From: a virus | DNA length: 25,025 bases | IMG/VR virus record: IMGVR_UViG_3300032092_000229 | Location: 1 to 25,025 of that record | Reading direction: 5' to 3' (one strand) | Shown: piece by piece, positions 965-18,347 of the stretch | How the letters are laid out: every line of letters begins with the position of its first letter | Numbering within the stretch: position 1 is the stretch's first letter | Program-made: the position numbers and the translations under genes | The notes under the pieces: generated by a model | Database searches by the model: none | Told to the model about the DNA's origin: nothing | Seen by the model: only the letters and a program-made list of their open reading frames with translations

Positions 965-2752
965 TTAGAATGTTCCGCCGTCGATTGTGCTGTTCGCACT
1001 TAGGTAGTCCGTACCTTCCGTAGCTGCGGAATAGCTTGTTCCATTACCTTTTAATAGGCCGGTAATTGCTGCTGTAAGTCCAAGACCACCCTTTGTAACA
1101 CCAATTGCTGTAGCGTTCCAAGTACCAGTACCCACTGTACCAAGTGTAGTTATAGTTGTCTGACCTACATAAGTAGATGCAATATCAATAGCATCAGCTG
1201 CAACTGTAATGCGGTTAGCAGTACCTACAACGTCGATTGTATTGCCTGTTTTAGTTAGACCATTACCTGCCGTAATTTGTCCAGCTCCAGAGAACTGTGT
1301 AATTGTAATTGGGGTTGTACCAAGTGTACCGCCCTGATCTACTGTGAATAGGAATCCATTCTCGGCATTTGTTGTGCCTCTTTCAACGAATACAAATGCA
1401 GCCGGTAGTTCAGCCCAAAGGCTGGCGTCATCCGCGCGAGTAAGCACCCAGTTTGTAGATGCAGAACCAATGTTAGTTACTACGAAAATACCATTTTGTG
1501 CAGCAGTAGTCTGATCTTTAACAAGTACGCGATCATTCACTGTTAGTGTGATACCATCAATGGCTAGTGCGGCTTGAGCTCCACTATTAGTTAGTGTTTG
1601 TGTAGTAGCTGTTACTGTTAAGTTAGCAGTTGTTGCTACTACAGTGCTTGCTTTAGGATCGAGTCCTTGAATAGCAAGATCCACGTAGTTCTTAGTCGCG
1701 GCATCTTGTGCGGCAGTAGGATCAGCAAGACCTGTGATCTTCTGCGAGTTCATAGCAAGCGCGGCTGCTGGAGCTGCGAGCTGTGCTACTGTACTTGTGC
1801 GTACCTGGGTATCAAAGTCACTGATCTTAGAAGCAGTAAGTGTAGGTATATCTGCAGCAACTAGTGAGCTGCTAGCAATTACGCGTCCTTTAGCATCAAC
1901 CTGTACTTTAGTATACGTACCCGCAGTAACACCAGAGTTTGCTAGTGTTAGTGTAATTGCTGTAGTACCTGTACCAGAAGCGTCGCCAGAGATAGAGATT
2001 GACTGGTTGGCAGTTAGATACGTACTTGTATCAATAGCATAAGTATCAGTACCTGTACGTCTAATGAAACCGGCTGTAGCGGTATTCATGAATGTGGCTA
2101 GGGCTGTAAGTGCCGGACCTACACTAATACTATATGTTGTATTAGTAGCTGTATTTGCACTATATCCAGTACCAGTACCAACTGTAACTGTTGTATTACT
2201 TGCGCCTGCAGCACCTACTGAGAATGTAAGGGTACCATTGTTTACTGTAGGTAGATCACTTGTTAAAGCTACTGTACCCGTACTTGCAGGTAATGTTAGG
2301 GTAGTTGTACCTGCAACAGCACTTGCTACTACTTTGGTCGTTCCACTTGTGGAACCAGCAAAGATAGCGCCATTTGTTGAGCCAGCAGCGTTGAGAGTTA
2401 CCCCTCCAGTTAATGTAACTGCGGTAGTAGTAGATGCTCCACGACCAGTTACTGTAGCTAATGTATCGCTCTCTGCCGTTAAGTATGTACTATTATCTAA
2501 TACATAAGTGTCGGCACCGCTTCTCTTTAGGAACCCTGTACCTGATAGCCCAGAAATTGAAGTAAGGTCGGCATCTAGTGCCTGAACTTCGCTAGATTTA
2601 GCGAATACTTCATAACTGTTTGATCCTGTACCTACTGCGATACGATTTTCGTCTGTAATTAGGTACGGTTCGCCAAGATTTAATGTATTACCTGTGACAG
2701 CAGCATTAAGTTGAGCTCTAGTACCTCTTTTAATCTTTAAAAGATTTGCCAT
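965..2752 (-). CDS. Tail fibre protein
   Basis: 595 aa, low-complexity Thr/Ala/Gly/Ser-rich beta-structural protein. The N-terminus (KIKRGTRAQLNAA...LGEPYLITDENRIAVGT) is the fibre-attachment type motif also present in the next gene upstream. Two internal copies of a module are visible: GFLKRSGADTYVLDNSTYLTA near 80 and GFIRRTGTDTYAIDTSTYLTA near 230. A TKNYVD...QGLDPK segment (about 355-370), common in phage fibres, separates proximal and distal parts. It ends in STIDGGTF; the neighbour 2763-3098 also ends in a GTF tail. The ribosome-binding site is weak, so coupling to the preceding gene (10-nt gap) is likely. Confidence 0.85.
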   Translation of the reverse strand: MANLLKIKRGTRAQLNAAVTGNTLNLGEPYLITDENRIAVGTGSNSYEVFAKSSEVQALDADLTSISGLSGTGFLKRSGADTYVLDNSTYLTAESDTLATVTGRGASTTTAVTLTGGVTLNAAGSTNGAIFAGSTSGTTKVVASAVAGTTTLTLPASTGTVALTSDLPTVNNGTLTFSVGAAGASNTTVTVGTGTGYSANTATNTTYSISVGPALTALATFMNTATAGFIRRTGTDTYAIDTSTYLTANQSISISGDASGTGTTAITLTLANSGVTAGTYTKVQVDAKGRVIASSSLVAADIPTLTASKISDFDTQVRTSTVAQLAAPAAALAMNSQKITGLADPTAAQDAATKNYVDLAIQGLDPKASTVVATTANLTVTATTQTLTNSGAQAALAIDGITLTVNDRVLVKDQTTAAQNGIFVVTNIGSASTNWVLTRADDASLWAELPAAFVFVERGTTNAENGFLFTVDQGGTLGTTPITITQFSGAGQITAGNGLTKTGNTIDVVGTANRITVAADAIDIASTYVGQTTITTLGTVGTGTWNATAIGVTKGGLGLTAAITGLLKGNGTSYSAATEGTDYLSANSTIDGGTF

Positions 2753-2762
2753 TTATTTATTC

Positions 2763-3098
2763 TCAGAATGTGCCGAAGTCTACATTCGCTACAGCTAATT
2801 CCATGAAGCTGTTGTTAATATCTTTTTGAATTGTTATACTACTGTTTGTTCTAAGTACCCCATTTGTTCCAGTAGTGCCTCCTAAATATCCTGGGACACC
2901 ATTTGCAACAACGGCTACTTTTTCGTCTTTTAGTTCTTCTGTTTTTGCAAACGACGAATAGCCGCTGGTACTAGTACCAACGGCCAATCTGTTTTCGTCT
3001 ATGATTAAGTAAGGCTCACCGTCTCTTAGCTGACCTGCTGCCTTAGCAGCCTCAATTTGAGCTCGCGTACCTCGTTTTATTTGTATAGTTTGTACCAT
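2763..3098 (-). CDS. Short tail fibre-like protein
   Basis: 111 aa from ATG 3098; an in-frame TTG at 3104 is the alternative. The first 45 residues (QIKRGTRAQIEAAKAAGQL...GEPYLIIDENRLAVGT) match the N-terminal motif of the 595-aa fibre next to it. The protein then stops after a short linker and a tail ending VDFGTF, so it is essentially attachment domain plus a stub. It could be a short baseplate or collar decoration, or the remnant of a longer fibre. No frameshift is seen that would join it to the next gene. Confidence 0.7.
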   Translation of the reverse strand: MVQTIQIKRGTRAQIEAAKAAGQLRDGEPYLIIDENRLAVGTSTSGYSSFAKTEELKDEKVAVVANGVPGYLGGTTGTNGVLRTNSSITIQKDINNSFMELAVANVDFGTF

Positions 3099-3145
3099 GT
3101 CCAACTATAACGTACCGAAGAGTACGTGCTTGCCGCTAATGCAGC

Positions 3146-3343
3146 CTAGCTCTTAGATGTGGTGCTGGCTACTATAATATGGAGCCAAAATGCGCTCAAC
3201 CAATTCCAGAATGTAAGCTGGATAGTTGTGCCAAATAGCTGGTTAACCGCTAAAATAGATAGCCAAGGGCCTAGAACGAATACTCCTACGATCAGTAGGA
3301 TAACTCCGCCAATGCCAAGAGCTGTGAAAGTTTTTTCTAACAT
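3146..3343 (-). CDS. Small two-helix membrane protein
   Basis: 65 aa with two hydrophobic segments, about 7-29 (LGIGGVILLIVGVFVLGPWL) and 40-60, separated by a short polar turn. ATG at 3343 follows GGAG. Its position near the fibre genes would fit a holin-like or inner-membrane phage protein, but hydrophobicity is the only evidence. A TTGACT lies 27 bases upstream (3370-3375), but the matching -10 (TAACAT) would overlap the ribosome-binding site, so that promoter is doubtful. Confidence 0.6.
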   Translation of the reverse strand: MLEKTFTALGIGGVILLIVGVFVLGPWLSILAVNQLFGTTIQLTFWNWLSAFWLHIIVASTTSKS

Positions 3344-3384
3344 GTAATGTTACTCCAAAAAGGATGTGAAGTCAAGTTATTTTT

Positions 3385-3750
3385 CTACGAGGCTAGGATA
3401 AAGTCGCCTGTACGGTCTAGAAATTTGTAGTCTATTTTTGTGGGCAGAAACTCTTGAATTGCAGCAAAAATAGTATTTTTATCAAACTCGGCACAAGAGT
3501 ACACATCAAGTTGCATCAGTCCAGGACTTTCTTCGTCCCAGACGTGCAGAACTATATGACTAGTCTCAATGACTGTCGCTACGGTTAATCCACGATTACC
3601 CTCCATATCAGAATACGTAGCATATGGCCCCATTAGAATTTTCATTCCGATGGCCTCTACTAGGTTCTTCTTCCAGACAGTAATATAAGTTGGGTCAGTT
3701 GGTGGGGCAGATAATTCTGCCCTCACTACAAGGTGGTGATGTACAAGCAA
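3385..3750 (-). CDS. speD: S-adenosylmethionine decarboxylase-like protein (SpeD family)
   Basis: 121 aa from TTG 3750, which has GAAGGA seven bases upstream and begins directly after the stop of the preceding gene. The longer reading from 3813 would overlap that gene by 62 bases. It starts LVHHHLVVRAEL, like the HLVVDLYGC start of prokaryotic SpeD. The core TSHIVLHVWDE...LDVYSC aligns with the family's ESHIxIHTWPE...DVFTC. The Ser that becomes the pyruvoyl group, the His and the catalytic Cys are kept, but Glu before the Ser is Thr. The enzyme makes decarboxylated SAM for spermidine synthesis. Whether this copy self-processes is uncertain. Confidence 0.8.
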   Translation of the reverse strand: MLVHHHLVVRAELSAPPTDPTYITVWKKNLVEAIGMKILMGPYATYSDMEGNRGLTVATVIETSHIVLHVWDEESPGLMQLDVYSCAEFDKNTIFAAIQEFLPTKIDYKFLDRTGDFILAS

Positions 3751-3751
3751 T

Positions 3752-4462
3752 TTATTTTCCTTCAAGCCACTTTTTAAAGTAGGGTCTATATGGACGATAT
3801 ACGTCCACTCCATATTGTTTAAGATGATCTAGGTTTCCTAGATCGTACGCATAAGCACCGTCGTAATATCCCCCGTAACTATCAATACTAGGGAAATATG
3901 GCGAGACCTCTTCAATAGTCTCAATAACATAAACTCGATAGTAATTAGCGATATGTTTTTCACTAACATTATGTTTGCGCTCTAGCACGATGGCCATACA
4001 ATGCCTACGAGCATGCCATACGACTTGTCCATGCTCAAATTCTTCGCGCGCGCACTGTTCAGGAATAATACCTGGCTGCCAGTAGTTTGCTCCAACAACT
4101 TTTTGCGGAACTCCTACAAACTCAATAACATCCTTAACAAATCCAGGAGAACGATAGATGCGCTTTGAAATATCTGTTACTGCGTCTCCATCAAGATAAC
4201 TCTCGATTATAGTTTGAATCTCATACTCGGTTGCCGCTTTACCTCGGTTTGCAGCCCTACGCTGCTGCTGGTCTTCTTGGTCTTGCTTAAACTGTTCAAT
4301 AACTTTAGATAGGCGAGTAGTATTGTACGCAATATTAAGAATGTCACAAGCGTCTTTTTTAGAGATAGGCTTTTCAGCCTCTAAAAGCTGGATAACTCTT
4401 TTGATGCTGGTTTCAGTAATGTTTTCGCCTTCTTTAATCTTTACTTTACCACGAGCTGCCAT
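3752..4462 (-). CDS. Putative DNA-binding (HTH) phage protein
   Basis: 236 aa. Residues about 15-55 (TSIKRVIQLLEAEKPISKKDACDILNIAYNTTRL) look like a helix-turn-helix, followed by a basic/Gln-rich helix (60-78) and a second possible HTH (TEYEIQTIIESYLDGDAVTDISKRIYRSPGFVKDVI). The C-terminal half contains EFEHGQVVWHARRHCMAIV and many aromatic residues. It has its own promoter at 4490-4518 and a GGGGAG ribosome-binding site. The downstream gene encodes the SpeD-like protein. The family is not recognised beyond conserved phage protein; a regulator is inferred from the HTH pattern only. Confidence 0.6.
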   Translation of the reverse strand: MAARGKVKIKEGENITETSIKRVIQLLEAEKPISKKDACDILNIAYNTTRLSKVIEQFKQDQEDQQQRRAANRGKAATEYEIQTIIESYLDGDAVTDISKRIYRSPGFVKDVIEFVGVPQKVVGANYWQPGIIPEQCAREEFEHGQVVWHARRHCMAIVLERKHNVSEKHIANYYRVYVIETIEEVSPYFPSIDSYGGYYDGAYAYDLGNLDHLKQYGVDVYRPYRPYFKKWLEGK

Positions 4463-4489
4463 GCTATATCTCCCCGAAAATGAGTTGTT

Positions 4490-4518
4490 ATTATACTAAG
4501 AAAGACTTGAAATGTCAA
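4490..4518 (-). promoter_or_regulatory. Sigma70-type promoter
   Basis: TTGACA (4518-4513), 17-bp spacer, TATAAT (4495-4490), the best consensus match in the window. ACTTGA-CATT-TCAAGT forms an inverted repeat around the -35. It drives the HTH protein and SpeD. Confidence 0.85.
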
Positions 4519-4519
4519 G

Positions 4520-4666
4520 TTAAATTTTAAAGATCCTAAGTACTTCTTCATCTAGATCGTAGTCTAGCATATCGCCCTCTTCCCAATCGAGCCTTCTAAG
4601 CATGCTCTCTGGTATAACAATAAAGTATTCGTCGAGGTCTTCGTTATATTCTAGTTCCATATTCAT
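4520..4666 (-). CDS. Small acidic AbrB/SpoVT-like protein
   Basis: 48 aa. The start ATG overlaps the thyX stop (ATGA). The segment EYFIVIPESMLRRLDWEEGDMLDYDLDEEVLRI follows the SpoVT-AbrB beta pattern (...ipe.ll..lgweeGD.l...). A second copy of this pattern occurs in the gene at 23231-23455. Such single-domain phage proteins may bind DNA or simply be acidic modulators; function is not known. It ends just before the promoter at 4490-4518. Confidence 0.7.
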   Translation of the reverse strand: MNMELEYNEDLDEYFIVIPESMLRRLDWEEGDMLDYDLDEEVLRIFKI

Positions 4667-5340
4667 TCCACTGTTCCTTGACAAGCCTCAACAACATTTG
4701 GAAAATGTTGTTGAATAATGTTCCAGCATTGTTCTGCAACAATACGATGTTCCTTTTGAGTGGCTTTATCCATACGAAGCTGACAATAATGAATCCAGCT
4801 ACGGAGAGTTCCCGCCATAATCATGGTTGATTCTGTACAGCCTTCTGGAAGCACAGCGCGAGCCTGTTCCTTGGCAATACCATTTTCTATTGCCCAGTTG
4901 TAGGCATCTTTTGCTGCTATTGTGGCGCATTCTTGTATTGCTTGCCACTCATCAGCTAGTCTCTGTCCTTCTTCGCCCACCTCGACGGAGTTCTGTCTAT
5001 TCTTCCGATCTTGTAAGCGAGCTTCCCTTGTAACAAATCCAAGATCTCTTGTTGGATCAGCATAACGCTGGCTATATTCTTGGAAGGCGAAACTTCTGTG
5101 TCGTAAGATTTGGCGAGCAATATCTCTAGTCGTTTTAATTTCCATGCTGACATGTACCATCTCCAGTGGCGACCAGTGCTGATTCTTAATTAGATAACTA
5201 ACCAATTTATTAGCTGTCGCCAGATTATTTTGATTTGAGGGATTAGATACTCTAGCTCCCCAAGCTACTAGTTCTTCGGCTGTGTTACAGTCTGTATAGG
5301 CACTTGGCTTAGAGATAGAGATTAGGTTTACTTCACTCAT
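4663..5340 (-). CDS. thyX: Flavin-dependent thymidylate synthase ThyX
   Basis: 225 aa, normal ThyX length. The signature RHRSFAFQEYSQRY (about residues 80-93) is the RHRxxSxxExSxRY dUMP/FAD-binding motif. The C-terminal segment RAVLPEGCTESTMIMAGTLRSWIHYCQLR matches the family's active-site Ser and Arg region. It converts dUMP to dTMP with FAD, NADPH and methylene-tetrahydrofolate. With the phage dUTPase it secures thymidylate for phage DNA. ATGA overlaps join it to the genes on both sides, so it is translated in a coupled operon led by the promoter at 6801-6829. Confidence 0.97.
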   Translation of the reverse strand: MSEVNLISISKPSAYTDCNTAEELVAWGARVSNPSNQNNLATANKLVSYLIKNQHWSPLEMVHVSMEIKTTRDIARQILRHRSFAFQEYSQRYADPTRDLGFVTREARLQDRKNRQNSVEVGEEGQRLADEWQAIQECATIAAKDAYNWAIENGIAKEQARAVLPEGCTESTMIMAGTLRSWIHYCQLRMDKATQKEHRIVAEQCWNIIQQHFPNVVEACQGTVE

Positions 5341-5534
5341 TGAATCTCTTCCAGTGCCTCTAGCTTATCCTTGTACTCGGCAATATGTGCTAGCTCAAGT
5401 TCAATAGCGGCCATAAAATCAGTATGGTCATGAATAGCCATTGGATTGTCCATCATAATGTGGACGTTCATTGCGTGCTTATCAATATGGGCCTGGAAAT
5501 GCTTCTTAAGCACCCTTTTAATCTTATCTTTCAT
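5337..5534 (-). CDS. Hypothetical charged helical protein
   Basis: 65 aa from ATG 5534, which overlaps the previous stop (ATGA) and follows GGAGAG. An upstream in-frame ATG at 5546 is less likely. It is rich in Lys, His, Met and Glu (KDKIKRVLKKHFQAHIDKHAMNVHIMM), probably all helical with a C-terminal acidic coiled segment. No family recognised. Confidence 0.65.
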   Translation of the reverse strand: MKDKIKRVLKKHFQAHIDKHAMNVHIMMDNPMAIHDHTDFMAAIELELAHIAEYKDKLEALEEIQ

Positions 5535-6076
5535 TCGACTCTCCATGATGTTGTGTTTAATTTAATATTTGTAGGCCAGTCGCCTTCGGTATAAGATTTA
5601 TCATGAAATCTTAACTCGTTTGTGGGCATGATACAAAGTCTGCCATTGTCTAGTTCTATGAACATGAACTCTTTCGACTGGGATGGATCCATTGTGTACC
5701 CATCATTCATAGGAACGGCAGTAAACAAATACATGCCAAACTCGCCGCTCCTACGTATCTCAGCCGTTTGATTATTCAAATAGTCATACTTTATTACTGA
5801 GAATTGATCGCCGTAGCAGTCCCAAATCTGAGAATCCTCAAGAGACCATATCGGTTTCGGTTCTGGAGAGAATGCTAGAGCATGAGGAGGAACACCTCGC
5901 CACACAGCACCACACTCTAGCATTACATGGCAGCCCCAAGAGTGTCCAGGTTTTGAATGTAAAGCGAACCAAATACAGGGTTCAAAGGTATATGGCTCTA
6001 CACCCTTGCGGATGAATGATGAGTCTACCCAACAGTAGATATGATGTGGGATATTCCCAGAACCAGTATATAACAT
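5531..6076 (-). CDS. Conserved phage protein of unknown function
   Basis: 181 aa, rich in Trp, His, Cys and Pro (WFALHSKPGHSWGCHVMLECGAVWRGVPPHALAF). There is no signal peptide or membrane segment. Mixed alpha/beta composition and scattered Cys/His could mean metal binding, but no clean motif is present. The ATG at 6076 shares one base with the stop of the 40-aa membrane gene (TAATG), so translation is coupled. Confidence 0.6.
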   Translation of the reverse strand: MLYTGSGNIPHHIYCWVDSSFIRKGVEPYTFEPCIWFALHSKPGHSWGCHVMLECGAVWRGVPPHALAFSPEPKPIWSLEDSQIWDCYGDQFSVIKYDYLNNQTAEIRRSGEFGMYLFTAVPMNDGYTMDPSQSKEFMFIELDNGRLCIMPTNELRFHDKSYTEGDWPTNIKLNTTSWRVE

Positions 6077-6198
6077 TATTTATTACGTACTCCAATAATA
6101 ATTAGTAGTGCAATCAGTACTACCCAGAACCATGCAGGTAATTGGGCTAACAAACTTAGGAATAATAAGACGAAAATCAATTGTATTATTAAATCCAT
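6076..6198 (-). CDS. Tiny membrane protein
   Basis: 40 aa, nearly all hydrophobic: MDLIIQLIFVLLFLSLLAQL, then PAWFWVVLIALLIIIGVRNK. It has two closely spaced membrane segments with a Pro-containing turn and a basic end. ATG 6198 has GGAAGG upstream and lies 4 bases after the preceding stop; its own stop overlaps the next ATG. Size and shape would suit a holin-like or toxin-like peptide, but nothing more specific can be said. Confidence 0.65.
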   Translation of the reverse strand: MDLIIQLIFVLLFLSLLAQLPAWFWVVLIALLIIIGVRNK

Positions 6199-6201
6199 TT
6201 A

Positions 6202-6792
6202 CTACCTTCCTGAGATTCTGCCAGCCTGTGCAGCTACCATGTCGTCATCCCACCAGTCTGGTTTACCGCGTACTTTCCATGAAGCAAACGGACCTTTGTC
6301 TAACATGTAGAACTTGCGATAAGAAGCGACGGCATCGTCACTTTTAAGCTGATCTGGCATTGCAAGAGTTGGGGTAGACCAACCTACATTTGGTAGTCTA
6401 GTAGGCTCTGGCATACGATTGGCCTCTGCACAGGATGCATGAGATTTATTACCGCGCCACATCGTCTCCTCGTTGAGAGCATTGATGTAGTTGATAATCC
6501 AGTAGTGATGCTCTAAGCTACTACGTGCCCAAATAGCGCTGGGATGATTGATGTGAGTAGGCAAATATCGAGTGAATACACGCTGGTCAATAGCCGGCTC
6601 ATTACGCTTATGTTCATTAATAACTCCTAGTTCTTCGCTTGTTAGTTTACGGGGAATGAAGCCTAGATACTTATCGACCCACAGTGTAGTAGTCATAAGC
6701 TGAGCTGCTTCCAGCTGCATCTTACCTACATGCTTGTCGATATGATACTCGGCACATTTGTCTAAATCATGGTCAAGATAAAATAAATTCAT
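6202..6792 (-). CDS. Pyrimidine-dimer glycosylase-like (Pyr_excise superfamily) phage protein
   Basis: 196 aa. It begins MNLFYLDHDLDKCAEYHIDKHVGKM, the typical start of a widespread phage family (N-terminal YLD..., D.C...H.DKHV.KM.LE.AQL) distantly related to T4 endonuclease V. HPSAIWARSS and QAMPD-like (LAMPDQLK) motifs are also present. The role may be DNA repair or base excision; catalysis is not established for this family. It lacks a Shine-Dalgarno, and the ATG lies only 8 bases past the -10, so its mRNA is predicted to start at or just before the ATG. Confidence 0.7.
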   Translation of the reverse strand: MNLFYLDHDLDKCAEYHIDKHVGKMQLEAAQLMTTTLWVDKYLGFIPRKLTSEELGVINEHKRNEPAIDQRVFTRYLPTHINHPSAIWARSSLEHHYWIINYINALNEETMWRGNKSHASCAEANRMPEPTRLPNVGWSTPTLAMPDQLKSDDAVASYRKFYMLDKGPFASWKVRGKPDWWDDDMVAAQAGRISGR

Positions 6793-6800
6793 AGTAAGCC

Positions 6801-6829
6801 TTTATAGCAAAGAACAGTAGTAAAGTCAA
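6801..6829 (-). promoter_or_regulatory. Sigma70-type promoter, nearly leaderless start
   Basis: TTGACT (6829-6824), 17-bp spacer, TATAAA (6806-6801), then 8 bases to the ATG at 6792. The stop codon of the upstream gene (TGA 6828-6826) lies inside the -35. It drives the six-gene thyX operon. Confidence 0.8.
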
Positions 6830-7101
6830 GACTGATTATTAATCTTCTTAACCCAGTCTTCCATAAGCTTAGCGTACCCGCCAATGTCATGGTAGTTATC
6901 ATCATACATAGGATCACCATTAATAGCACGAGCGAACTTATCCGCTAGTGTGGTGAATCCTTGCTTTACTACTGGAGGTAGTCGTTCCCACTTCTCAGGA
7001 TATATACGAAAGGCATCCTGAATAGCTTGAGCAATAGTGGCGTGCTCTTCAAAAGAGCCATAACGGGCGCCACGTTCTGCTAGTGTAGTTTCTATTGACA
7101 T
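6826..7101 (-). CDS. DUF6378-like phage protein
   Basis: 91 aa. LAERGARYGSFEEHATIAQAIQDAF...W..L........FTTLADKFARAINGDPMYDDNYHDIGGYAKL matches a small helical domain found in many phages (ERG.RYG.F..HA...; K.AR...GDP...D...DIAGYA.L). The conserved His and Asp spacing resembles nucleotide-pyrophosphohydrolase-type folds, but function is unproven. ATG 7101 overlaps the end of the Rz1 gene by 10 bases. Confidence 0.75.
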   Translation of the reverse strand: MSIETTLAERGARYGSFEEHATIAQAIQDAFRIYPEKWERLPPVVKQGFTTLADKFARAINGDPMYDDNYHDIGGYAKLMEDWVKKINNQS

Positions 7102-7376
7102 TTGAGTTCCTTCTTGTCATTTACAGCATCTTTTACGCAAATATATAGATCTATGATCTTATTTAGTTGGAAAGATACTGCATTATATCGTTTACTTGTA
7201 TCTACATTAGCCTGTACAAGTCCACCCATAGTTGGATCTGTAATAGGAGGTAGAGGCTCTGCTTTTTGTGCGAGATTTCCTGGAAGAGGAGGGATTTGCA
7301 CCGCTGGGGCTAGTCCTGTCTCCTTACCTGCACAAGCGGTAGTAAGAAGCGCCAAAGCTAATATTAGTTTTTTCAT
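7092..7376 (-). CDS. Rz1: Outer-membrane spanin subunit (Rz1-like lipoprotein)
   Basis: 94 aa. It has a lipoprotein signal MKKLILALALLTTAC with lipobox LTTAC (Cys15), then a Pro-rich segment (APAVQIPPLPGNL...EPLPPITDP) and a short amphipathic C-terminus. The o-spanin is anchored in the outer membrane and joins the i-spanin to fuse inner and outer membranes in the last step of lysis. The gene starts 4 bases inside the end of the Rz gene, the usual order, here as overlapping-end rather than nested genes. Confidence 0.85.
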   Translation of the reverse strand: MKKLILALALLTTACAGKETGLAPAVQIPPLPGNLAQKAEPLPPITDPTMGGLVQANVDTSKRYNAVSFQLNKIIDLYICVKDAVNDKKELKCQ

Positions 7377-7774
7377 TGTCCTAACCCTCTGATTGCATTA
7401 AGTTCTTTTAGAACATCTGCATCTGTTTTACACTCTTTATATATAGGCTTTTCTTGAATAATAGTTCTGATACTATTTTCATGAATAACTTCTTTTTGTA
7501 CCCTAGCCTGATCTTGCTTTCTAGCAAGCTCACCGTAGTTAACTGCTTGGGTTGCTATAGAATCTGTGAGTTTTCTGTTCTTCTCACCTTCTATTTCGAT
7601 TTTCTTTTCCCACTTAGTGCGTTCTTCTGTAACGCCTTTGTTATAATAAACATTGGATACTACAAAGAATTCTACTATAATTATAACTACCGGAAGTACT
7701 ATTTTCCAATATTTAATAGCCAGTTCTAGTAACTTTTTACCGAATCCTAGCATCCTTAATGCGAAGAATAGCAT
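7373..7774 (-). CDS. Rz: Inner-membrane spanin subunit (Rz-like)
   Basis: 133 aa. There is one N-terminal membrane segment (about 24-44, WKIVLPVVIIIVEFFVVSNV) followed by a charged coiled coil (KWEKKIEIEGEKNRKLTDSIATQ...) reaching into the periplasm and a C-terminal KECKTDADVLKELNAIRGLGQ tail typical of Rz proteins. It pairs with the adjacent Rz1 lipoprotein. ATG 7774 has only a weak ribosome-binding site. No clear promoter is seen between it and the terminator at 7809-7838. Confidence 0.85.
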   Translation of the reverse strand: MLFFALRMLGFGKKLLELAIKYWKIVLPVVIIIVEFFVVSNVYYNKGVTEERTKWEKKIEIEGEKNRKLTDSIATQAVNYGELARKQDQARVQKEVIHENSIRTIIQEKPIYKECKTDADVLKELNAIRGLGQ

Positions 7775-7808
7775 ATTTCTGCTCTGTGATTCTTACGAAT
7801 CAGCTGGA

Positions 7809-7838
7809 CAAATGCAAATAGGGGGCTGTTAAGCCCCC
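7809..7838 (-). terminator. Rho-independent-type terminator
   Basis: GGGGGCT-TAAC-AGCCCCC on the minus strand, followed by a T-rich TATTTGCATTTG tract rather than a pure T run. It lies at the stop of the zinc-ribbon gene and separates the tmRNA unit from the spanin genes. Confidence 0.6.
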
Positions 7839-8125
7839 TAGTAGCAGTCATCACATTTAGGAGATTCAAATATACGTCTCGTAGAGGGCATTGAACAGCC
7901 TGAACAAATATTAGCCGACATTTCTTTAGCAAACATAGAGAAAGCATCTGTTGTCTTGCTCCCTCCTTTATATATAATAGCTAAAGTTCCGTGTCGTACT
8001 GAACATTGAACATCTTCAATTGCTACCCCATCATTAAACTCAACATCATATTCTACCATAGCTCTAAAAGCGTCAATAATATGATCCCAAGCTAGCGGGA
8101 CTTCCTCAGATACGGAGTAGTTCAT
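7838..8125 (-). CDS. Hypothetical protein with C-terminal zinc-ribbon-like Cys motif
   Basis: 95 aa from ATG 8125, chosen over GTG 8146 because AAGGAG lies 10 bases before it. The acidic N-terminal half (WDHIIDAFRAMVEYDVEFNDGVAIEDVQ) is followed by KEMSANICSGCSMPSTRRIFESPKCDDCY, with CxxC...CxxC likely binding zinc. It overlaps the upstream small gene by 20 bases. Function unknown. Confidence 0.7.
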   Translation of the reverse strand: MNYSVSEEVPLAWDHIIDAFRAMVEYDVEFNDGVAIEDVQCSVRHGTLAIIYKGGSKTTDAFSMFAKEMSANICSGCSMPSTRRIFESPKCDDCY

Positions 8126-8267
8126 TGAGGTATTTCTCCTTGTCACTAGATTTGAAATAAGCGCTTTCTTCCGCGAATGTCATCTTTCTGTGCTGTGGAG
8201 TACCTTGCTTATCTTTCCAACAGACATGAGTGATGCCGTCGAAAGGTATTGTCCATGGATTACTCAT
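8106..8267 (-). CDS. Small hypothetical protein downstream of tmRNA
   Basis: 53 aa: MSNPWTIPFDGITHVCWKD, then KQGTPQHRKMTFAEESAYF and a Lys/Glu-rich end. The ribosome-binding site AGGAG sits 6 bases before ATG 8267, directly after the 3' region of the tmRNA precursor, so it is probably on the same transcript. No family recognised. Confidence 0.65.
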   Translation of the reverse strand: MSNPWTIPFDGITHVCWKDKQGTPQHRKMTFAEESAYFKSSDKEKYLNELLRI

Positions 8268-8325
8268 TTTATCTCCTTATGAAAATGCCCCGTTCTGTTT
8301 CTAGGTGGAAGCGTACCCAAAAGAA

Positions 8326-8370
8326 TCAAGCTGCTAGAGCTAGACCTTCATATGCGTTGTTATCGTTTGC
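8326..8370 (-). other. tmRNA proteolysis-tag reading frame
   Basis: Resume codon GCA at 8370-8368, reading ANDNNAYEGLALAA then TGA. With the Ala carried by tmRNA the added tag is AANDNNAYEGLALAA. The AND start and LAA end match known tags recognised by ClpXP and ClpAP. The context GTAAAT-GCAAACGA before and at the resume codon resembles the conserved resume region. Confidence 0.9.
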
Positions 8371-8448
8371 ATTTACGTTTTGTGGCTCTTTGCCAGTCAA
8401 TAGTCTCGGCGTTCCTATTACACGAAAATCGAATACCAGGTCGCCCCC

Positions 8449-8501
8449 ATCATGAATACTGCTCTTTTCGGCGACTGAACCCTCTATCGGAACAGTATTC
8501 A
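8449..8501 (-). other. tmRNA intervening segment (hairpin removed on maturation)
   Basis: TGAATACTG (8501-8493) and CAGTATTCA (8461-8453) form a perfect 9-bp stem between the CCA end and the GGGGGCG 5' end. This is the loop expected to be excised to give two RNA pieces. Confidence 0.75.
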
Positions 8502-8571
8502 TGGTGGAGGCGGCGGGAGTCGAACCCGCGTCTTTCCGCTTTTATTGTCGGCTGTCAGCGACTATGTATAT

Positions 8572-8600
8572 GATATAACAAAAATTACATCAAAAGTCAA
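8572..8600 (-). promoter_or_regulatory. Promoter of the phage tmRNA
   Basis: TTGACT (8600-8595), 17-bp spacer, TATATC (8577-8572); predicted start near 8565. The stop codon of the 57-aa gene (8599-8597) lies inside the -35. Confidence 0.8.
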
Positions 8601-8770
8601 GAAATATTTTCTCGTTCCTGCTTAGCACGAAGGTGCTCTGCTGGACTCATTCCGTAATCCATATGATTAACTGAGATATTAGCTAGAATGAGCTTCTGTC
8701 CCGTCGAGCGATACCAAAGATCACGTTGCTTCTTTTTTCTTTCCATTTTTTGCTTGTGCGTTTCCTGCAT
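8597..8770 (-). CDS. Hypothetical basic protein
   Basis: 57 aa, start ATG 8770 with AAAGGAG upstream. The very basic N-terminus (HKQKMERKKKQRDLWYRSTG) is followed by SPAEHLRAKQERENIS. It overlaps the DUF1289 gene by 50 bases in another frame. The length of the overlap lowers certainty, but the ribosome-binding site is strong. Confidence 0.6.
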   Translation of the reverse strand: MQETHKQKMERKKKQRDLWYRSTGQKLILANISVNHMDYGMSPAEHLRAKQERENIS

Positions 8771-8861
8771 CTACAATCTCCTTTAGGGTTCTACCACATC
8801 CTAGACAGATATAAGTTACCTGATCTAGTTTACACTTATTTTGACACTTCTTTTCAGTCAT
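8721..8861 (-). CDS. DUF1289-like small Cys protein
   Basis: 46 aa: MTEKKCQNKCKLDQVTYICL, then GCGRTLKEI. The pattern C...C.LD..T..C.GCGRTL.EI is that of DUF1289, a small probably metal-binding domain frequent in proteobacteria. The preferred start, ATG 8861, lies exactly 6 bases after the -10 and has no Shine-Dalgarno, so the mRNA is predicted leaderless. An upstream in-frame ATG at 8876 lies within the promoter. Confidence 0.75.
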   Translation of the reverse strand: MTEKKCQNKCKLDQVTYICLGCGRTLKEIVDAGNAQAKNGKKKEAT

Positions 8862-8867
8862 ATATAC

Positions 8868-8896
8868 ACTATACATACTTTAAGCCTTGATGTCAA
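8868..8896 (-). promoter_or_regulatory. Promoter giving a leaderless mRNA
   Basis: TTGACA (8896-8891), 17-bp spacer, TATAGT (8873-8868), 6 bases, then ATG 8861. It diverges from the plus-strand promoter at 8952-8980. Confidence 0.8.
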
Positions 8897-8951
8897 GAAG
8901 TAAATTAAGCGACCCAAAAGTAATCTTTCCTAGTTCGGGTCAAAATATGTC

Positions 8952-8980
8952 TTGACTTTCAAGTCAAAATCACATATATT
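8952..8980 (+). promoter_or_regulatory. Promoter of the dut-rpsU operon, leaderless start
   Basis: TTGACT (8952-8957), 17-bp spacer, TATATT (8975-8980), 6 bases, then ATG 8987. TTGACTT-TC-AAGTCAA (8952-8967) is a perfect inverted repeat over the -35 and could serve as an operator. Confidence 0.85.
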
Positions 8981-8986
8981 ACATGA

Positions 8987-9154
8987 ATGCAGTACAAGAA
9001 AAGACCTTGGACGGACGAGGAGCGTTACATTTTGAAAAAGTATTATAAGCTCAAGCCGATGAAGGAACTTCTTGTGCTGCTGCCTGATCGAACAGAGAAG
9101 GCTATACATAATCAGGTATCATATTTAAGAAAAAGGAAATGGACTTTTGGGTAA
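8987..9154 (+). CDS. Myb/SANT-like small DNA-binding protein
   Basis: 55 aa. RPWTDEERYILKKYYKLKPM is followed by KELLVLLPDRTEKAIHNQVSYLRKRKW, the tryptophan-anchored W-T-x-E-E...L...R...A I..... L...W pattern of Myb/SANT and Myb-like HTH domains. It is first in the plus-strand operon. It has no Shine-Dalgarno, and the ATG coincides with the predicted transcription start. A second ATG at 8983 is out of frame. It probably binds DNA, possibly the inverted repeat at its own promoter (inference). Confidence 0.75.
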   Translation: MQYKKRPWTDEERYILKKYYKLKPMKELLVLLPDRTEKAIHNQVSYLRKRKWTFG

Positions 9155-9362
9155 AAAGAGAAAGAGATCAAAGACGGTCTCTAAGGGTGAACGTCGCAAT
9201 GTTTCGGCAGCGAATTCGTTTGACACTTGGGGAGTAATTGATCGAGCTATATTCAAAGCCAAAGCCCTTGCTGCCGGGAAGCGGGTTTGTTTTACAATCC
9301 CTAATCCCGACAAAACTAACACTAAAGCAAGGTTTATTAAGGTATGTCAGAATGGACGATAA
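9147..9362 (+). CDS. Conserved phage protein (SKGERRNVS family)
   Basis: 71 aa from TTG 9147 with AAGGA about 10 bases upstream, overlapping the Myb-like gene by 8 bases. The basic start GKKRKRSKTVSKGERRNVS, and later AAGKRVCFTIPNPDKTNTKARFIKV, occur in many tailed phages of the T4 type. Function unknown. ATG 9139 lies in a different, shorter frame. Confidence 0.7.
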   Translation: MGKKRKRSKTVSKGERRNVSAANSFDTWGVIDRAIFKAKALAAGKRVCFTIPNPDKTNTKARFIKVCQNGR

Positions 9363-9555
9363 TGTCGTTGAGCTATTTGGGAAGAATCCTACAGTAGTTG
9401 TAGTGGATGAGATTGATCCTGTATTAAATTTTATACAGGATATATTTATTCCGTGGGCTATTGATAATGAACTTGATATTAACTCCATGAAGTTCAAACT
9501 TAACGCAGCAACTATTATGACATGTTTACAAGGAATGTTACTGGATGACATTTGA
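9352..9555 (+). CDS. Hypothetical acidic protein
   Basis: 67 aa from ATG 9352, with AAGG 9 bases upstream. A longer reading from TTG 9238 would overlap the previous gene by 125 bases and is rejected. The sequence MDDNVVELFGKNPTVVVVDE, then IDPVLNFIQDIFIPWAIDNE, is acidic with long hydrophobic stretches. It overlaps the neighbours by 11 bases on each side. No family recognised. Confidence 0.65.
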   Translation: MDDNVVELFGKNPTVVVVDEIDPVLNFIQDIFIPWAIDNELDINSMKFKLNAATIMTCLQGMLLDDI

Positions 9556-9955
9556 GAAGTTACATGAGGATGCAATTATTCCTCAATACCAAACAATCGG
9601 ATCAGCTGGTCTAGATCTTCACAGTATTTTAGCAACCACGATTTTGCCTGGAGAGAGGCAACTAGTAGGCACTGGCCTGCGAGTAAATCTTCCCAACGGT
9701 ACAGAGGGGCAAGTCCGTTCTCGCTCTGGCCTTGCGGCAAAACATGGTATTATTGTTCTCAATGCCCCTGGCACTATAGATGAGGATTATCAAGGAGAGA
9801 TTAAGGTCATCCTTTATAATGCTGGTGATAGTACTTTTAGCATTGAGAAAGGTGATAGAATCGCACAACTAGTGGTGGCACAGGTATATAAACTCGCCGG
9901 TCATACACTAGAGAATATTAGAGAAGATAAGGGATTCGGGTCAACAGGTCTATGA
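9545..9955 (+). CDS. dut: dUTP diphosphatase
   Basis: 136 aa, trimeric dUTPase length. All five motifs are present: GSAGLDLHS (1), RSRSGLA (2), GTIDEDYQGEIKV (3), GDRIAQLV (4) and GFGSTG (5, the glycine-rich C-terminal arm). It hydrolyses dUTP to dUMP, which keeps uracil out of phage DNA and feeds ThyX. ATG 9545 overlaps the previous gene, and its stop forms ATGA with the bS21 gene. Confidence 0.97.
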   Translation: MTFEKLHEDAIIPQYQTIGSAGLDLHSILATTILPGERQLVGTGLRVNLPNGTEGQVRSRSGLAAKHGIIVLNAPGTIDEDYQGEIKVILYNAGDSTFSIEKGDRIAQLVVAQVYKLAGHTLENIREDKGFGSTGL

Positions 9956-14787: not shown

Positions 14788-14862
14788 TGGAGCGGGCGAT
14801 CGGGATCGAACCGACGACGAACAGCTTGGAAGGCTGACACTCTACCGCTGAGCTACGCCCGC
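14788..14862 (-). tRNA. tRNA-Gly(UCC)
   Basis: Complete cloverleaf: acceptor GCGGGCG/CGCCCGC, anticodon loop CTTCCAA, T-loop TTCGATC, discriminator U, encoded CCA. Confidence 0.93.
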
Positions 14863-15023
14863 GTTCGTTCGCGTTGTTAAATTTGTAGCCGAGGTATTAC
14901 GCCCCCTCTCGCCCATCGACAGGCTAAGGGATTTACGATCATGCATCACGGTTAATTACTCCGTGTCCCTCTATTGCGAGGTGCGTTCCCTACTCGTTCT
15001 TTTGCGTTGACGACTACAAAACT
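14863..15023 (-). ncRNA. Structured spacer between tRNA-Gly and tRNA-Met
   Basis: About 160 bases without ORF. CCTC-GCAATA-GAGG and CACGG-AGTAATTAA-CCGTG hairpins can be read on the minus strand. Probably part of the large RNA or its processed linker. Confidence 0.4.
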
Positions 15024-15098
15024 TGGTACCAGTAGCTAGGATCGAACTAGCGACCAAGGGAATATGAGTCCCGTACTCTACCGCTGAGCTATACTGGT
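15024..15098 (-). tRNA. tRNA(CAU), elongator Met or lysidine-type Ile2
   Basis: Acceptor ACCAGTA/TACTGGT, loop CTCATAT, T-loop TTCGATC, encoded CCA. The region CCTTGGTCGCTAGTTC resembles bacterial tRNA-Ile2 more than elongator Met, so AUA decoding after lysidine modification is possible. Confidence 0.9.
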
Positions 15099-15121
15099 GT
15101 AATAAAAAGACTACAAGGTAC

Positions 15122-15200
15122 TGGTTGCAGAGGTCGGATTTGAACCGACGATTTCCGGCTTATGAGACCAGCGAGGACAACCTGACTCCTCTACTCCGCG
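15122..15200 (-). tRNA. Initiator tRNA-fMet(CAU)
   Basis: Starts CGCGGAG and ends CTCTGCA-A-CCA, with the C1-A72 mismatch that marks bacterial initiator tRNA. Anticodon loop CTCATAA, T-loop TTCAAAT. The anticodon stem has G29-C41 and G30-C40, but U31-G39 in place of the third G-C pair. Confidence 0.9.
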
Positions 15201-16151
15201 ATAAATGCTATTAAAAGACACTAGTAAAGTGATAAAGGTCCTAAAAACCACGATCGTTGCTATAAATTCGGCCTTGAATGTATACTAATGTCATTTAATA
15301 GCACTCGTTAAAGTGCTATACGAAGGATGAGATTACTCCTTCTAACGGAAGTCTTTGGTCATTACCCAATCCCTTGCGAGGATGGTTCTACCTTTATCCA
15401 CCAAAACGTCTCACGACTGTTCTAGTAACTTCCAGTGCTGCCTTATTAAAGTGATGGCGTTTTCACTGTCACATCGTGCTAATCATCCTTCAATCACCCG
15501 TCTGCCTTGCGAGCAGTTCAGTTCCGCTAAGAACTTCCGTAGTCTTTCCGAACAAACAACTTTGGCTTGCGACCTCCGTTGCACCACATTGTCTTACGAC
15601 TGTGGTATTAAGCACCTTTCACACGATGCCGAAGCGGACTTTGCGTTTTGCTTTATAATAGAGTTTCAGTCTATCCATATATAAGTGAAACATAAGTTTT
15701 GCTAATCTACCTCGAAGTGCCACTTCCGCTGCTTCATTTCCTTTTGGGAAACAAAATACAACACTCCGACTGTTTTTCTCCTTGCGGGATACTAGACCAT
15801 ACTTCAGGACTTGCGCCCTTGATATTGCTGTGTAGCTCTTTCACGCTAATGATCGAACACCACAACTACCAGTTAACTGTACGCACCTCATGTTTTGGCT
15901 TGCTATGGAACAGGACGCCAATCCTTTTATCCCTCACCGAACGGCTCTGGGCATATATCTTTTCAGACCATAACAACACTCCATGCGATGATTGCCTAAG
16001 TAAATAGACAACGACACGCTTTCGGCTATCAACCGAGTCGTATCCAACGCTGGCTTGCATAGTCAGACTCTTGCGAGCGCAGGTATGTAGAAATCCCTGC
16101 ATTGGCCACATTGCTGTGGTTATCTGTTATAGAGCGCTATGCCGCTCTTGA
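15201..16151 (-). ncRNA. Large structured non-coding RNA (about 950 nt)
   Basis: No credible ORF on either strand. It has its own promoter (16158-16186) and a dense series of hairpins: GNRA loops such as CTC-GCAA-GAG, GGGC-GCAA-GTCC, GTC-GTAA-GAC inside ACCACA/TGTGGT, and GTC-GTGA-GAC; three bulged modules reading U-C-GCAA-G inside GC-rich stems; plus UUCG and other stem-loops (GCACT-TTAACG-AGTGC, GAAGGA-GTAATCTCA-TCCTTC). Size, phage location and tRNAs in the same unit are features of giant ornate phage RNAs such as GOLLD. Class membership is inference. Confidence 0.7.
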
Positions 16152-16157
16152 ATATCT

Positions 16158-16186
16158 TTTATAGATGATTTGACCATGAAAGTCAA
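16158..16186 (-). promoter_or_regulatory. Promoter of the large structured RNA
   Basis: TTGACT (16186-16181), 17-bp spacer, TATAAA (16163-16158). RNA predicted to begin at UCAAGAGCG (16151). Confidence 0.82.
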
Positions 16187-16241
16187 GATCTATTTTTTGA
16201 ATCCTTGGATAACTACTGAAGAATTTCAGTGTTTATCAAAG

Positions 16242-16267
16242 GGATGGTTGTTAACGCACAACCATCC
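16242..16267 (-). terminator. Strong hairpin, possible terminator
   Basis: GGATGGTTGT-GCGTTA-ACAACCATCC, a perfect 10-bp stem, but followed only by CTTTGATAAA. It may end the second RNA or be a structural stem. Confidence 0.4.
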
Positions 16268-16495
16268 AAAGCGGGGCCGATAGGCCGATAACTGGTTTAC
16301 TACTTACTCGCCTCGGTTGTCTGGCCAGACCATATCCGATCCTACCTAGTAAGCAAGGTCTCCATATTCAAGAATTGTGCACGATGGAAACGAGCCAATT
16401 ATCTACTAGCACGTCTTATTAGGTTCGCCTAGCTTCCTTCATCGAGAGGTACAGTTGCTGTCTACCTCGATTACTATCAAGAACTGCGCTCTTGA
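16242..16495 (-). ncRNA. Second small non-coding RNA (about 250 nt)
   Basis: Transcript predicted from the promoter at 16502-16530. It begins UCAAGAGCG and folds at once (ATCAAGA/TCTTGAT). Further pairing is seen (TCGAGGTA..TACCTCTCGA; GTCTGGCCAGAC). No ORF longer than a few codons. Confidence 0.5.
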
Positions 16496-16501
16496 TAATC
16501 T

Positions 16502-16530
16502 GTTATACAAAACTTTCAAATGAAAGTCAA
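16502..16530 (-). promoter_or_regulatory. Promoter of the second non-coding RNA
   Basis: TTGACT (16530-16525), 17-bp spacer, TATAAC (16507-16502). Confidence 0.8.
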
Positions 16531-16591
16531 GTACTATTTTAACCAACCCTCAAGAGCAATTCTAGACTTTGAAGTCGTTCCCGCTCTTGAT
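16531..16591 (-). ncRNA. Short hairpin RNA
   Basis: From the promoter at 16598-16626, beginning UCAAGAGCG. TCAAGAGC (16590-16583) pairs with GCTCTTGA downstream (near 16558-16551) and encloses GACTT-CA-AAGTC. No clear terminator, so it may continue into the next unit. Confidence 0.45.
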
Positions 16592-16597
16592 GTAACC

Positions 16598-16626
16598 ATT
16601 ATACTCATTTAAGCATTGAAAGTCAA
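16598..16626 (-). promoter_or_regulatory. Promoter of the short hairpin RNA
   Basis: TTGACT (16626-16621), 17-bp spacer, TATAAT (16603-16598). Confidence 0.85.
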
Positions 16627-16642
16627 CACTAATTTTTAGCAA

Positions 16643-16730
16643 TGGTGGAAGAGGAGGGATTCGAACCCTCGGAACCTTTCGGTTCGTCTCGTTAGCAGTG
16701 AGGTGGTTTCAGCCTCTCACCCACTCTTCC
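16643..16730 (-). tRNA. tRNA-Ser(GCU)
   Basis: Acceptor GGAAGAG/CTCTTCC, loop CTGCTAA, long variable arm GAACC-GAAA-GGTTC, T-loop TTCGAAT, encoded CCA. Confidence 0.93.
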
Positions 16731-16736
16731 ATAATG

Positions 16737-16811
16737 TGGTAGCCCGAACGGGTTCCGACCCCGCTTCTCCGCTGTGAAAGAGCGGTGTCCTAGCCACTAG
16801 ACGACCGGGCC
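16737..16811 (-). tRNA. tRNA-Glu(UUC) with aberrant T-loop
   Basis: Acceptor GGCCCGG/TCGGGCT, anticodon CTTTCAC (UUC), encoded CCA. The T-arm GCGGG-GTCGGAA-CCCGT has G at 54 and G at 58 in place of T54 and A58. Confidence 0.85.
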
Positions 16812-16817
16812 ATTATA

Positions 16818-16891
16818 TGGTCGCGACGGCGGGGATCGAACCCGCGACTCTGGCACCACAAGCCAGCATGTTACCGCTACACTACGCCGTC
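16818..16891 (-). tRNA. tRNA-His(GUG) with irregular acceptor end
   Basis: Anticodon arm CTGGC-TTGTGGT-GCCAG, T-arm GCGGG-TTCGATC-CCCGC, encoded CCA. Acceptor pairs 3-7 are sound, but 1-72 and 2-71 are G-G and A-C. Confidence 0.82.
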
Positions 16892-16903
16892 ATAAACTTA
16901 AAT

Positions 16904-16966
16904 GATTAGACCCCGCTAGGCTGAACCCAACACCTCACGACTCCGCTCAGGCGAGGCCGTCTAATC
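16904..16966 (-). ncRNA. tRNA-like element without anticodon arm
   Basis: Closed by a perfect 8-bp stem GATTAGAC/GTCTAATC, with an inner CGC-CTGA-GCG hairpin and GGGTTCAGCC resembling a T-loop. It is 63 nt and has no CCA or anticodon loop. It lies between tRNA-His and tRNA-Pro and could be a decayed tRNA or a small structural RNA. Confidence 0.4.
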
Positions 16967-16991
16967 TTGCCCTAGTATTACCCTCATAAAC

Positions 16992-17068
16992 TGGTCGGGA
17001 ATGTAGGATTCGAACCTACGACCCCCTGGTCCCAAACCAGGTGCGCTACCAGACTGCGCTAATTCCCG
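16992..17068 (-). tRNA. tRNA-Pro(UGG)
   Basis: Acceptor CGGGAAT/ATTCCCG, anticodon arm CCTGG-TTTGGGA-CCAGG, T-loop TTCGAAT, encoded CCA. Confidence 0.95.
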
Positions 17069-17073
17069 AGAAT

Positions 17074-17274
17074 TTACTTACTTTGAGGAGCTGCTTCGCT
17101 ATCTGGAACAACTTCTGTATCTTCTGCTGTATTTGCTGCATGAAATGCAGCTTCAGCTTCTGGGCCCGCGGCTTCTGATACCGATGGTGCTTCTGATACA
17201 GATGGTGTTTCCGCTGGGGTACACGCTGCTGTGAGTGCGGCAACTGCTGCTGCCATAAAAATCTTGATGTTCAT
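17074..17274 (-). CDS. Small acidic lipoprotein within the tRNA array
   Basis: 66 aa from ATG 17274, after AAAGGGAG. Lipoprotein signal MNIKIFMAAAVAALTAAC with lipobox LTAAC (Cys18), then a Pro/Ser/Glu/Ala-rich tail with a repeated PSVSEA unit. It is a secreted, lipid-anchored peptide with no globular domain. It ends 6 bases before tRNA-Pro, and its promoter sits between it and tRNA-Cys. Phage lipoproteins often mediate superinfection exclusion; that role is inference here. Confidence 0.75.
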   Translation of the reverse strand: MNIKIFMAAAVAALTAACTPAETPSVSEAPSVSEAAGPEAEAAFHAANTAEDTEVVPDSEAAPQSK

Positions 17275-17295
17275 AATTAACTCCCTTTCATTGAA

Positions 17296-17324
17296 AATAT
17301 ACTTGATTAAGCGACTAAAGTCAA
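17296..17324 (-). promoter_or_regulatory. Promoter of the lipoprotein and downstream tRNAs
   Basis: TTGACT (17324-17319), 17-bp spacer, TATATT (17301-17296). Confidence 0.83.
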
Positions 17325-17333
17325 CACTTATTT

Positions 17334-17417
17334 TGGAGTGACGGGTGAGAATCGAACTCACTCTCTTTCGAGGCCTGAGATTTGCAGTCTCGCGCGTTAC
17401 CGATCCGCCACCGTCAC
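17334..17417 (-). tRNA. tRNA-Cys(GCA) with long variable arm
   Basis: Acceptor GTGACGG/CCGTCAC, anticodon CTGCAAA, discriminator U and CCA as expected for Cys. The variable region is 14 nt (GGCCTCGAAAGAGA, a CTC-GAAA-GAG arm), where normal tRNA-Cys has 4-5. Confidence 0.85.
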
Positions 17418-17424
17418 GTTAAAT

Positions 17425-17498
17425 TGGTACCCAAGGAAGGTAACGATCCTCCGTCTTCGAGTTATCAGCTCGTTGCTCTGCCTTTGAGCTACATGGGC
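17425..17498 (-). tRNA. tRNA-Ile(GAU) with variant T-loop
   Basis: Anticodon CTGATAA, acceptor GCCCATG/CTTGGGT with one U-U, encoded CCA. The T-loop is ATCGTTA: A54 and U58 instead of T54 and A58. Confidence 0.85.
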
Positions 17499-17501
17499 AA
17501 A

Positions 17502-17576
17502 TGGCGACCTTGAGGGATTACGATACCCCGTCCTTCGCAGTGACAGTGCGACGCTCTTCCTCTGAGCTACAAGGCC
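17502..17576 (-). tRNA. tRNA-Asp(GUC) with variant T-loop
   Basis: Acceptor GGCCTTG/CAAGGTC, anticodon CTGTCAC, G73, encoded CCA. T-loop ATCGTAA (A54, U58). Confidence 0.87.
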
Positions 17577-17578
17577 AA

Positions 17579-17666
17579 TGGAGGAAGCGGTGAGATTCGA
17601 ACTCACGGAACCTTTCGGTTCGCTAGTTTTCAAGACTAGAGCCATCAACCACTCGGCCACGCTTCC
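17579..17666 (-). tRNA. tRNA-Ser(UGA)
   Basis: Acceptor GGAAGCG/CGCTTCC, anticodon arm CTAGT-CTTGAAA-ACTAG, long variable arm, T-loop TTCGAAT, encoded CCA. Confidence 0.95.
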
Positions 17667-17674
17667 TTAACTTC

Positions 17675-17750
17675 TGGATGCCCGACTAGGACTCGAACCT
17701 AGAACCTACTGATTCAGAGTCAGTTGATCTACCAATTGATCTATCGGGCA
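17675..17750 (-). tRNA. tRNA-Gln(CUG)
   Basis: Acceptor TGCCCGA/TCGGGCA, anticodon arm ACTGA-CTCTGAA-TCAGT, T-loop TTCGAGT, encoded CCA. Confidence 0.93.
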
Positions 17751-17757
17751 AAATTTC

Positions 17758-17842: not shown

Positions 17843-17843
17843 G

Positions 17844-17916: not shown

Positions 17917-17928
17917 AAGTTAAACTTG

Positions 17929-18004: not shown

Positions 18005-18005
18005 A

Positions 18006-18087: not shown

Positions 18088-18099
18088 ACTTATAATATC

Positions 18100-18182: not shown

Positions 18183-18189
18183 GTTATTC

Positions 18190-18265: not shown

Positions 18266-18271
18266 TTATAA

Positions 18272-18346: not shown

Positions 18347-18347
18347 A

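Follow-up and report, generated by a model that had tools for sequence, protein, structure and literature searches.

The 25,025-base stretch of DNA analysed here (the window, a 25-kb fragment entered as an IMG/VR virus record and presumably from a virus of aquatic bacteria) carries a true phage two-piece tmRNA, encoded on the minus strand at 8284-8600 and belonging to a class that has already been published. We put at roughly 80% the probability that this gene is, as its sequence suggests, a working, phage-owned tmRNA of the alphaproteobacterial type whose intervening spacer is an exchangeable cassette. The phage genes in the window, together with the virus record, indicate that the gene is carried by a virus. 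Alone, the window gene is of modest interest; the part worth following is the spacer slot in its relatives.

The first-pass annotation, made from the letters alone, had proposed a complete permuted two-piece tmRNA in a phage and had asked for a covariance search with the alphaproteobacterial model. In that search (cmscan) Rfam RF04321 (tmRNA_permuted) matched 8563-8326 of the minus strand with 89.2 bits (gathering threshold 47, E-value 3e-16) and Rfam RF01849 (alpha_tmRNA) matched 8604-8284 of the same strand with 63.3 bits (gathering threshold 50). ARAGORN likewise predicted a permuted tmRNA, with the tag ANDNNAYEGLALAA, and the proposal is confirmed. The alpha_tmRNA score (63 bits) is lower than those of most other phage genes scored because the window gene has a shorter pairing domain and differs in its T-loop and D-like segment. 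The parts of the locus are as follows.

8572-8600, minus strand: sigma70-like promoter (TTGACT at 8600-8595, 17-nt spacer, TATATC at 8577-8572)
8502-8565, minus strand: acceptor piece, transcribed first (cmscan, RF04321 and RF01849; the 5' end at 8565 is approximate)
8529-8513, minus strand: T-arm GCGGG-UUCGACU-CCCGC, within the acceptor piece
8512-8506, minus strand: acceptor 3' strand CGCCUCC, followed by A73 at 8505 and the encoded CCA at 8504-8502
8449-8501, minus strand: intervening spacer of 53 nt, predicted to be removed, with a 9-10-bp closing stem (8501-8493/8461-8453) and a loop
8452-8449, minus strand: UGAU, the last spacer bases, opposite the ACCA end
8284-8448, minus strand: tag piece (cmscan; the 3' end near 8284 is approximate)
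8448-8442, minus strand: G1-G7, the start of the tag piece, after which the D-like segment follows
8538-8533 with 8428-8423, minus strand: first joining helix, CGGAAA with UUUUCG (from the sequence)
8565-8560 with 8405-8400, minus strand: second joining helix, AUAGUC with GACUAU (from the sequence)
8326-8370, minus strand: tag frame ANDNNAYEGLALAA, then UGA (ARAGORN); the resume codon is GCA with GUAAAU before it
within 8284-8448, minus strand: 3' domain of the tag piece with AACAGAA (cmscan)

The acceptor half precedes the tag half, and GGGGGCG (8448-8442) pairs with CGCCUCC (8512-8506) to give a 7-bp acceptor stem that includes G3-U70. The G3-U70 pair is an alanine determinant, and with discriminator A73 and CCA the alanine identity set is complete. 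The earlier reading of this arrangement, of the encoded CCA and of two further helices joining the pieces agrees with the sequence, and both helices (CGGAAA/UUUUCG and AUAGUC/GACUAU) have paired changes in an alignment of relatives. The tag, which had been described as intact and was called as such by ARAGORN, is of the degradation type, ends in ALAA and has its resume codon and stop. The predicted piece ends, 8502 (CCA) and 8448 (G1), match to the base. The closing stem of 8501-8449 itself is a feature absent from that annotation.

The tmRNA had also been given a promoter of its own, and this assignment is upheld by the TTGACT-17 nt-TATATC element at a position conserved among viral relatives. 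A generic promoter scan did not list the window promoter, which was missed because the last base of the -10 element is C. Within the 75 nt examined, TTGAC-N16..18-TA is found at the same place in 114 of 182 viral relatives (1-4% in controls, which were stretches 400-1500 nt farther upstream) and the T4-late box TATAAATA in 113 of the 182 (about 0-1% in controls). The two are found together in 85 relatives and in none of the controls, as an overlapping sigma70-type/T4-late promoter (TTGAC-17-TATAAATA) upstream of the viral tmRNA loci. On these counts the usual form is a sigma70-type promoter whose -10 element overlaps a T4-type late box, which suggests tmRNA expression both early and late in infection. 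The window has kept the sigma70-like element, with a weak -10 (TATATC), and lacks TATAAATA.

Relatives were collected as 117 unique viral and 49 unique alphaproteobacterial permuted tmRNAs. Parsing required acceptor and T-stem pairing, so these pairings are not independent evidence in the relatives; the spacer was left free. A second viral sample was drawn by a different pattern that also did not touch the spacer. More than 180 distinct viral relatives were parsed, and nearly all have G3-U70, CCA and an ANDN tag. One contig (L004) is 91.7% identical to the window over 1101-9625; in its tmRNA three T-stem pairs and one acceptor pair are changed on both sides with all pairings preserved, and its tag (ANDNDSFADIRLAA) and spacer differ from those of the window. 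The cmscan E-values and these compensatory changes place the window tmRNA far beyond chance. Another contig, 99.98% identical over 10 kb, is the same virus and thus gives no independent support. T-loops of the window type (UUCGACU) were found in 21 of 186 viral copies, and positions 54 and 58 of the T-loop are GG or UA in every viral copy but one.

Novelty of a phage permuted tmRNA, as implied by the first-pass annotation, did not stand. Among 18,146 phage genomes 53 two-piece tmRNAs have been reported, 50 of them marine or aquatic, with phage Melnitz as an example (Buchholz et al. 2022, PMC9004378), and a 2025 tmRNA database holds 79 bacteriophage tmRNA sequences of all forms (PMC11915505). 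When viral contigs were scanned with the tag start, and again with the opening bases of the tag piece, each scan gave at least 120 stretches. Moreover, Rfam matched unannotated permuted tmRNAs in Sinorhizobium phage Phosso, Mesorhizobium phage Cp1R7A-A1, Rhodobacter phage RcXuper, Ruegeria phage RpAliso and Erythrobacter phage vB_EliS-L02.

The gene of Melnitz, a Methylophilales phage (MZ577097), resembles that of the window in being permuted and of the alpha type, with an encoded CCA, an ANDN tag, a promoter directly upstream and thyX close by. In contrast, the Melnitz T-loop is the bacterial-type GGCAGTA, its spacer is 142 nt long and contains an unannotated 54-aa ORF whereas the 53-nt window spacer is non-coding, and its tmRNA gene is followed by a glutamine riboswitch; beside the window tmRNA Rfam gave no riboswitch match. 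Alphaproteobacterial permuted tmRNAs (Caulobacter type) share with the window the gene order, acceptor stem, G3-U70, CCA, tag context and 3' AACAGAA motif, but 46 of the 49 unique bacterial copies have the T-loop GGCRGTA and none has UUCGACU. The one-piece tmRNAs of the mycobacteriophage Bxz1 group and Bacillus phage G are phage-encoded like that of the window, but are not permuted.

From the known biology of permuted tmRNAs, we infer the following course for the window RNA. A precursor would be transcribed from the promoter at 8600-8572, RNase P would cut before G1 (8448), 3' processing would halt once it reaches the encoded CCA (8502), and the hairpin formed by the 53-nt spacer would be thrown away. 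The two pieces, held together by base pairing, would be charged by the host AlaRS and delivered to stalled ribosomes by host SmpB and EF-Tu, and the ANDNNAYEGLALAA tag would direct the product of the stalled ribosome to a host protease. A search of 20 phage records that carry a tmRNA, mostly fragments, found no SmpB, and thus the phage probably relies on the host protein. The phage may in this way control ribosome rescue, the likely benefit being that rescued ribosomes would stay in steady supply while infection leaves many messages broken. Leaderless, tightly overlapping mRNAs, which had been offered as the reason for such control, do not fit the window; Shine-Dalgarno sequences precede 15 of the 25 window ORFs checked, and the gene 3' of the tmRNA starts at 8267 with a good one and the sequence AAGGAGAUAAAAUG.

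A role in host takeover rather than rescue is the alternative that survives best, though we consider it unlikely. The phage tmRNA would then be a decoy or modulator that titrates host SmpB or AlaRS or redirects tagging by substituting the phage tag for that of the host. The tag-less tRNA-like domain of phage DS6A is reported to inhibit endogenous tmRNA (PMC11915505, PMC4131195), and the phage tags are unlike those sampled from bacteria (ANDNNAYEGLALAA against ANDNNAPVAVAA in Thalassospira, for instance). However, a pure decoy needs no tag frame, resume context or stop, and all three are intact in nearly all complete phage copies. The DS6A form (PMC4131195) lacks a tag frame and is not permuted, whereas the window tag called by ARAGORN is intact, which rules out the window RNA as a tRNA-domain-only inhibitor of that type. 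The start of the window's tag occurs in 20 viral stretches; ANDN tags are also found in bacteria.

The rescue tmRNA we favor differs from its bacterial counterparts in its spacer, and this architecture distinguishes phage copies from bacterial ones. The median spacer length is 82 nt in the 117 unique viral copies versus 31 nt in the 49 alphaproteobacterial copies. The first 9 nt of each spacer were compared with the 9 nt preceding its last four bases, and 8 or 9 pairs were scored as a stem. By this measure a closing stem is present in 98 of 107 testable viral spacers of the first sample and 57 of 65 of the second, and over both samples in 155 of the 172 unique viral spacers of sufficient length versus 5 of 34 bacterial ones. 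In neighboring registers the mean was about 3-5 pairs and hardly any stem was scored, so the stem exists at one register only. Several pair types occur at most stem positions, and hence the stem covaries. The last four spacer bases are UGAU in 92 of 117 viral copies, and three of the four could pair with ACCA, so that the acceptor stem is predicted to run on into the spacer as a nearly continuous helix. In the window, the spacer has both the closing stem and UGAU, and its predicted fold is one long hairpin that continues the acceptor stem. Such a stem would keep the precursor halves adjacent whatever lies inside, and therefore the spacer could be exchanged or filled without harm to the tmRNA.

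Signs of such exchange are seen with the window spacer itself. All 53 nt are identical in a contig (L305) having the bacterial-type T-loop GGCAGTA and a different tag, and four further contigs (L140, L306, L307 and L308) have the same loop, another tag and two A-U stem pairs that have both become G-C. Fifteen groups of similar spacers were found, and most span different tags. Because the permutation makes the acceptor half, the spacer and the start of the tag piece contiguous, one recombination could swap the whole tRNA-like domain. The permutation thus puts that domain and a disposable spacer side by side in a single stretch, which phages would swap and fill. We think it improbable that the window spacer is instead a functional small RNA released from the precursor, rather than a mere discarded linker. 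Its loop is base-for-base identical in six contigs with two tRNA-domain types and three tags, and its stem changes by compensation while the loop stays, both of which a small RNA would explain; however, a shared cassette can also reflect recent recombination, and the non-coding phage spacers, taken as a set, show only weak structure outside the closing stem (mean z -0.47, n=99). On that weak signal we also discarded the idea that non-coding spacers generally contain a structured RNA. ARAGORN found no tRNA within 136 spacers.

Many of the longer spacers hold genes. ORFs were counted as nested when they had a Shine-Dalgarno sequence and filled at least 60% of a spacer of at least 85 nt. Nested ORFs were present in 24 of 58 spacers of the first sample (1.8 +- 1.4 expected, maximum 6, from 100 dinucleotide shuffles) and in 15 of 39 of the second (1.1 +- 1.0 expected, maximum 4, from shuffles), giving 39 of 97 long viral spacers where about 3 are expected from shuffles that ignore the relatedness of the spacers. 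The ORFs form several unrelated families, among them a DUF2061-like membrane protein (match just below the Pfam cut-off) and several short hydrophobic or cysteine-rich proteins. Changes within families fall mostly at codon position 3, with dN lower than dS in almost every comparison: for instance, 0.049 versus 0.249 in the DUF2061 family and 0.12-0.14 versus 0.75-1.32 among three members of the MKNPLVKK family, rough values since the sequences are short and related. With a single exception (L100, see below), the spacers are free of TATAAATA boxes and strong sigma70 sites, and thus the spacer ORFs are expected to use the tmRNA promoter. The window spacer has no ORF of note and at 53 nt is too short for a comparable one. 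In the cultured phage Melnitz the 54-aa ORF lies within the spacer; it is the only nested ORF found among isolates, as tblastn of three spacer proteins against annotated isolate genomes gave no match.

These data make it fairly probable that the removed spacer is a general cargo slot. The covarying stem beside CCA would keep the precursor foldable whatever the insert, cassettes would move between tmRNAs having different tags and T-loops, and the small, often membrane-spanning, protein genes held by about 40% of long spacers would be translated from the precursor before or during processing, with the 53-nt element of the window being one conserved non-coding cassette. A hairpin-closed, swappable spacer between CCA and G1 that in many phages contains small genes looks new, and we found no description of the spacer ORFs in the open-access papers searched. 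Genes nested in the precursor of a structural RNA, and so read from a transcript that must be cut to release that RNA, would be an unusual arrangement which would couple ribosome rescue to expression of small phage proteins. Automated annotation overlooks the nested genes, and several isolates lack even the tmRNA in their annotation.

That the window tmRNA is an unused passenger from a host chromosome, acquired for example by imprecise excision, is very hard to credit: phages are known to carry fragments of host ssrA at integration sites (PMC9004378), but the window proteins searched included no integrase, compensatory evolution preserves the structure, the promoter is conserved in 114 of 182 relatives and the spacer has the architecture that marks phage copies.

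Individual spacers and their genes gave further observations. The 351-nt spacer of L100 has lost its closing stem and contains an HNH endonuclease gene (phrog_2255, E-value 2e-20) with its own TATAAATA late promoter and Shine-Dalgarno sequence; since this segment is cut out in any case, a mobile endonuclease lodged there would have no need of an intron. The unannotated Phosso tmRNA (about 5530-5945) was missed by ARAGORN and has a spacer of 410 nt without a long ORF, in which GCCCCATCATAACAACATG has perfect potential pairing with the spacer end and the first bases of the tag piece. A DUF2061 gene like the spacer-nested ones lies directly upstream of a short-spacer tmRNA in L272, and in five contigs (L273-L276 and L278) no tmRNA was found within about 1.5 kb of such a gene; hence the DUF2061 gene also lives outside the slot.

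Elsewhere in the window, the minus strand at 14788-18423 carries an array of 18 tRNA genes with a GOLLD RNA inside (15769-15324, Rfam 210.8 bits). Two other carriers of a permuted tmRNA, Phosso and the 99-kb contig of L095, have GOLLD as well. We rejected GOLLD as a fixed tmRNA companion since, besides the window, it is present in two of 20 records and absent from the other 18. Two adjoining ORFs at 965-3104 (minus strand) begin with an Mtd_N-like domain (the N-terminus of the major tropism determinant), the second being a short copy whose match is below the Pfam cut-off. Genes for S-adenosylmethionine decarboxylase and ThyX lie at 3385-3813 and 4663-5340 of the minus strand, and in both the window and Melnitz thyX is a few kb from the tmRNA.
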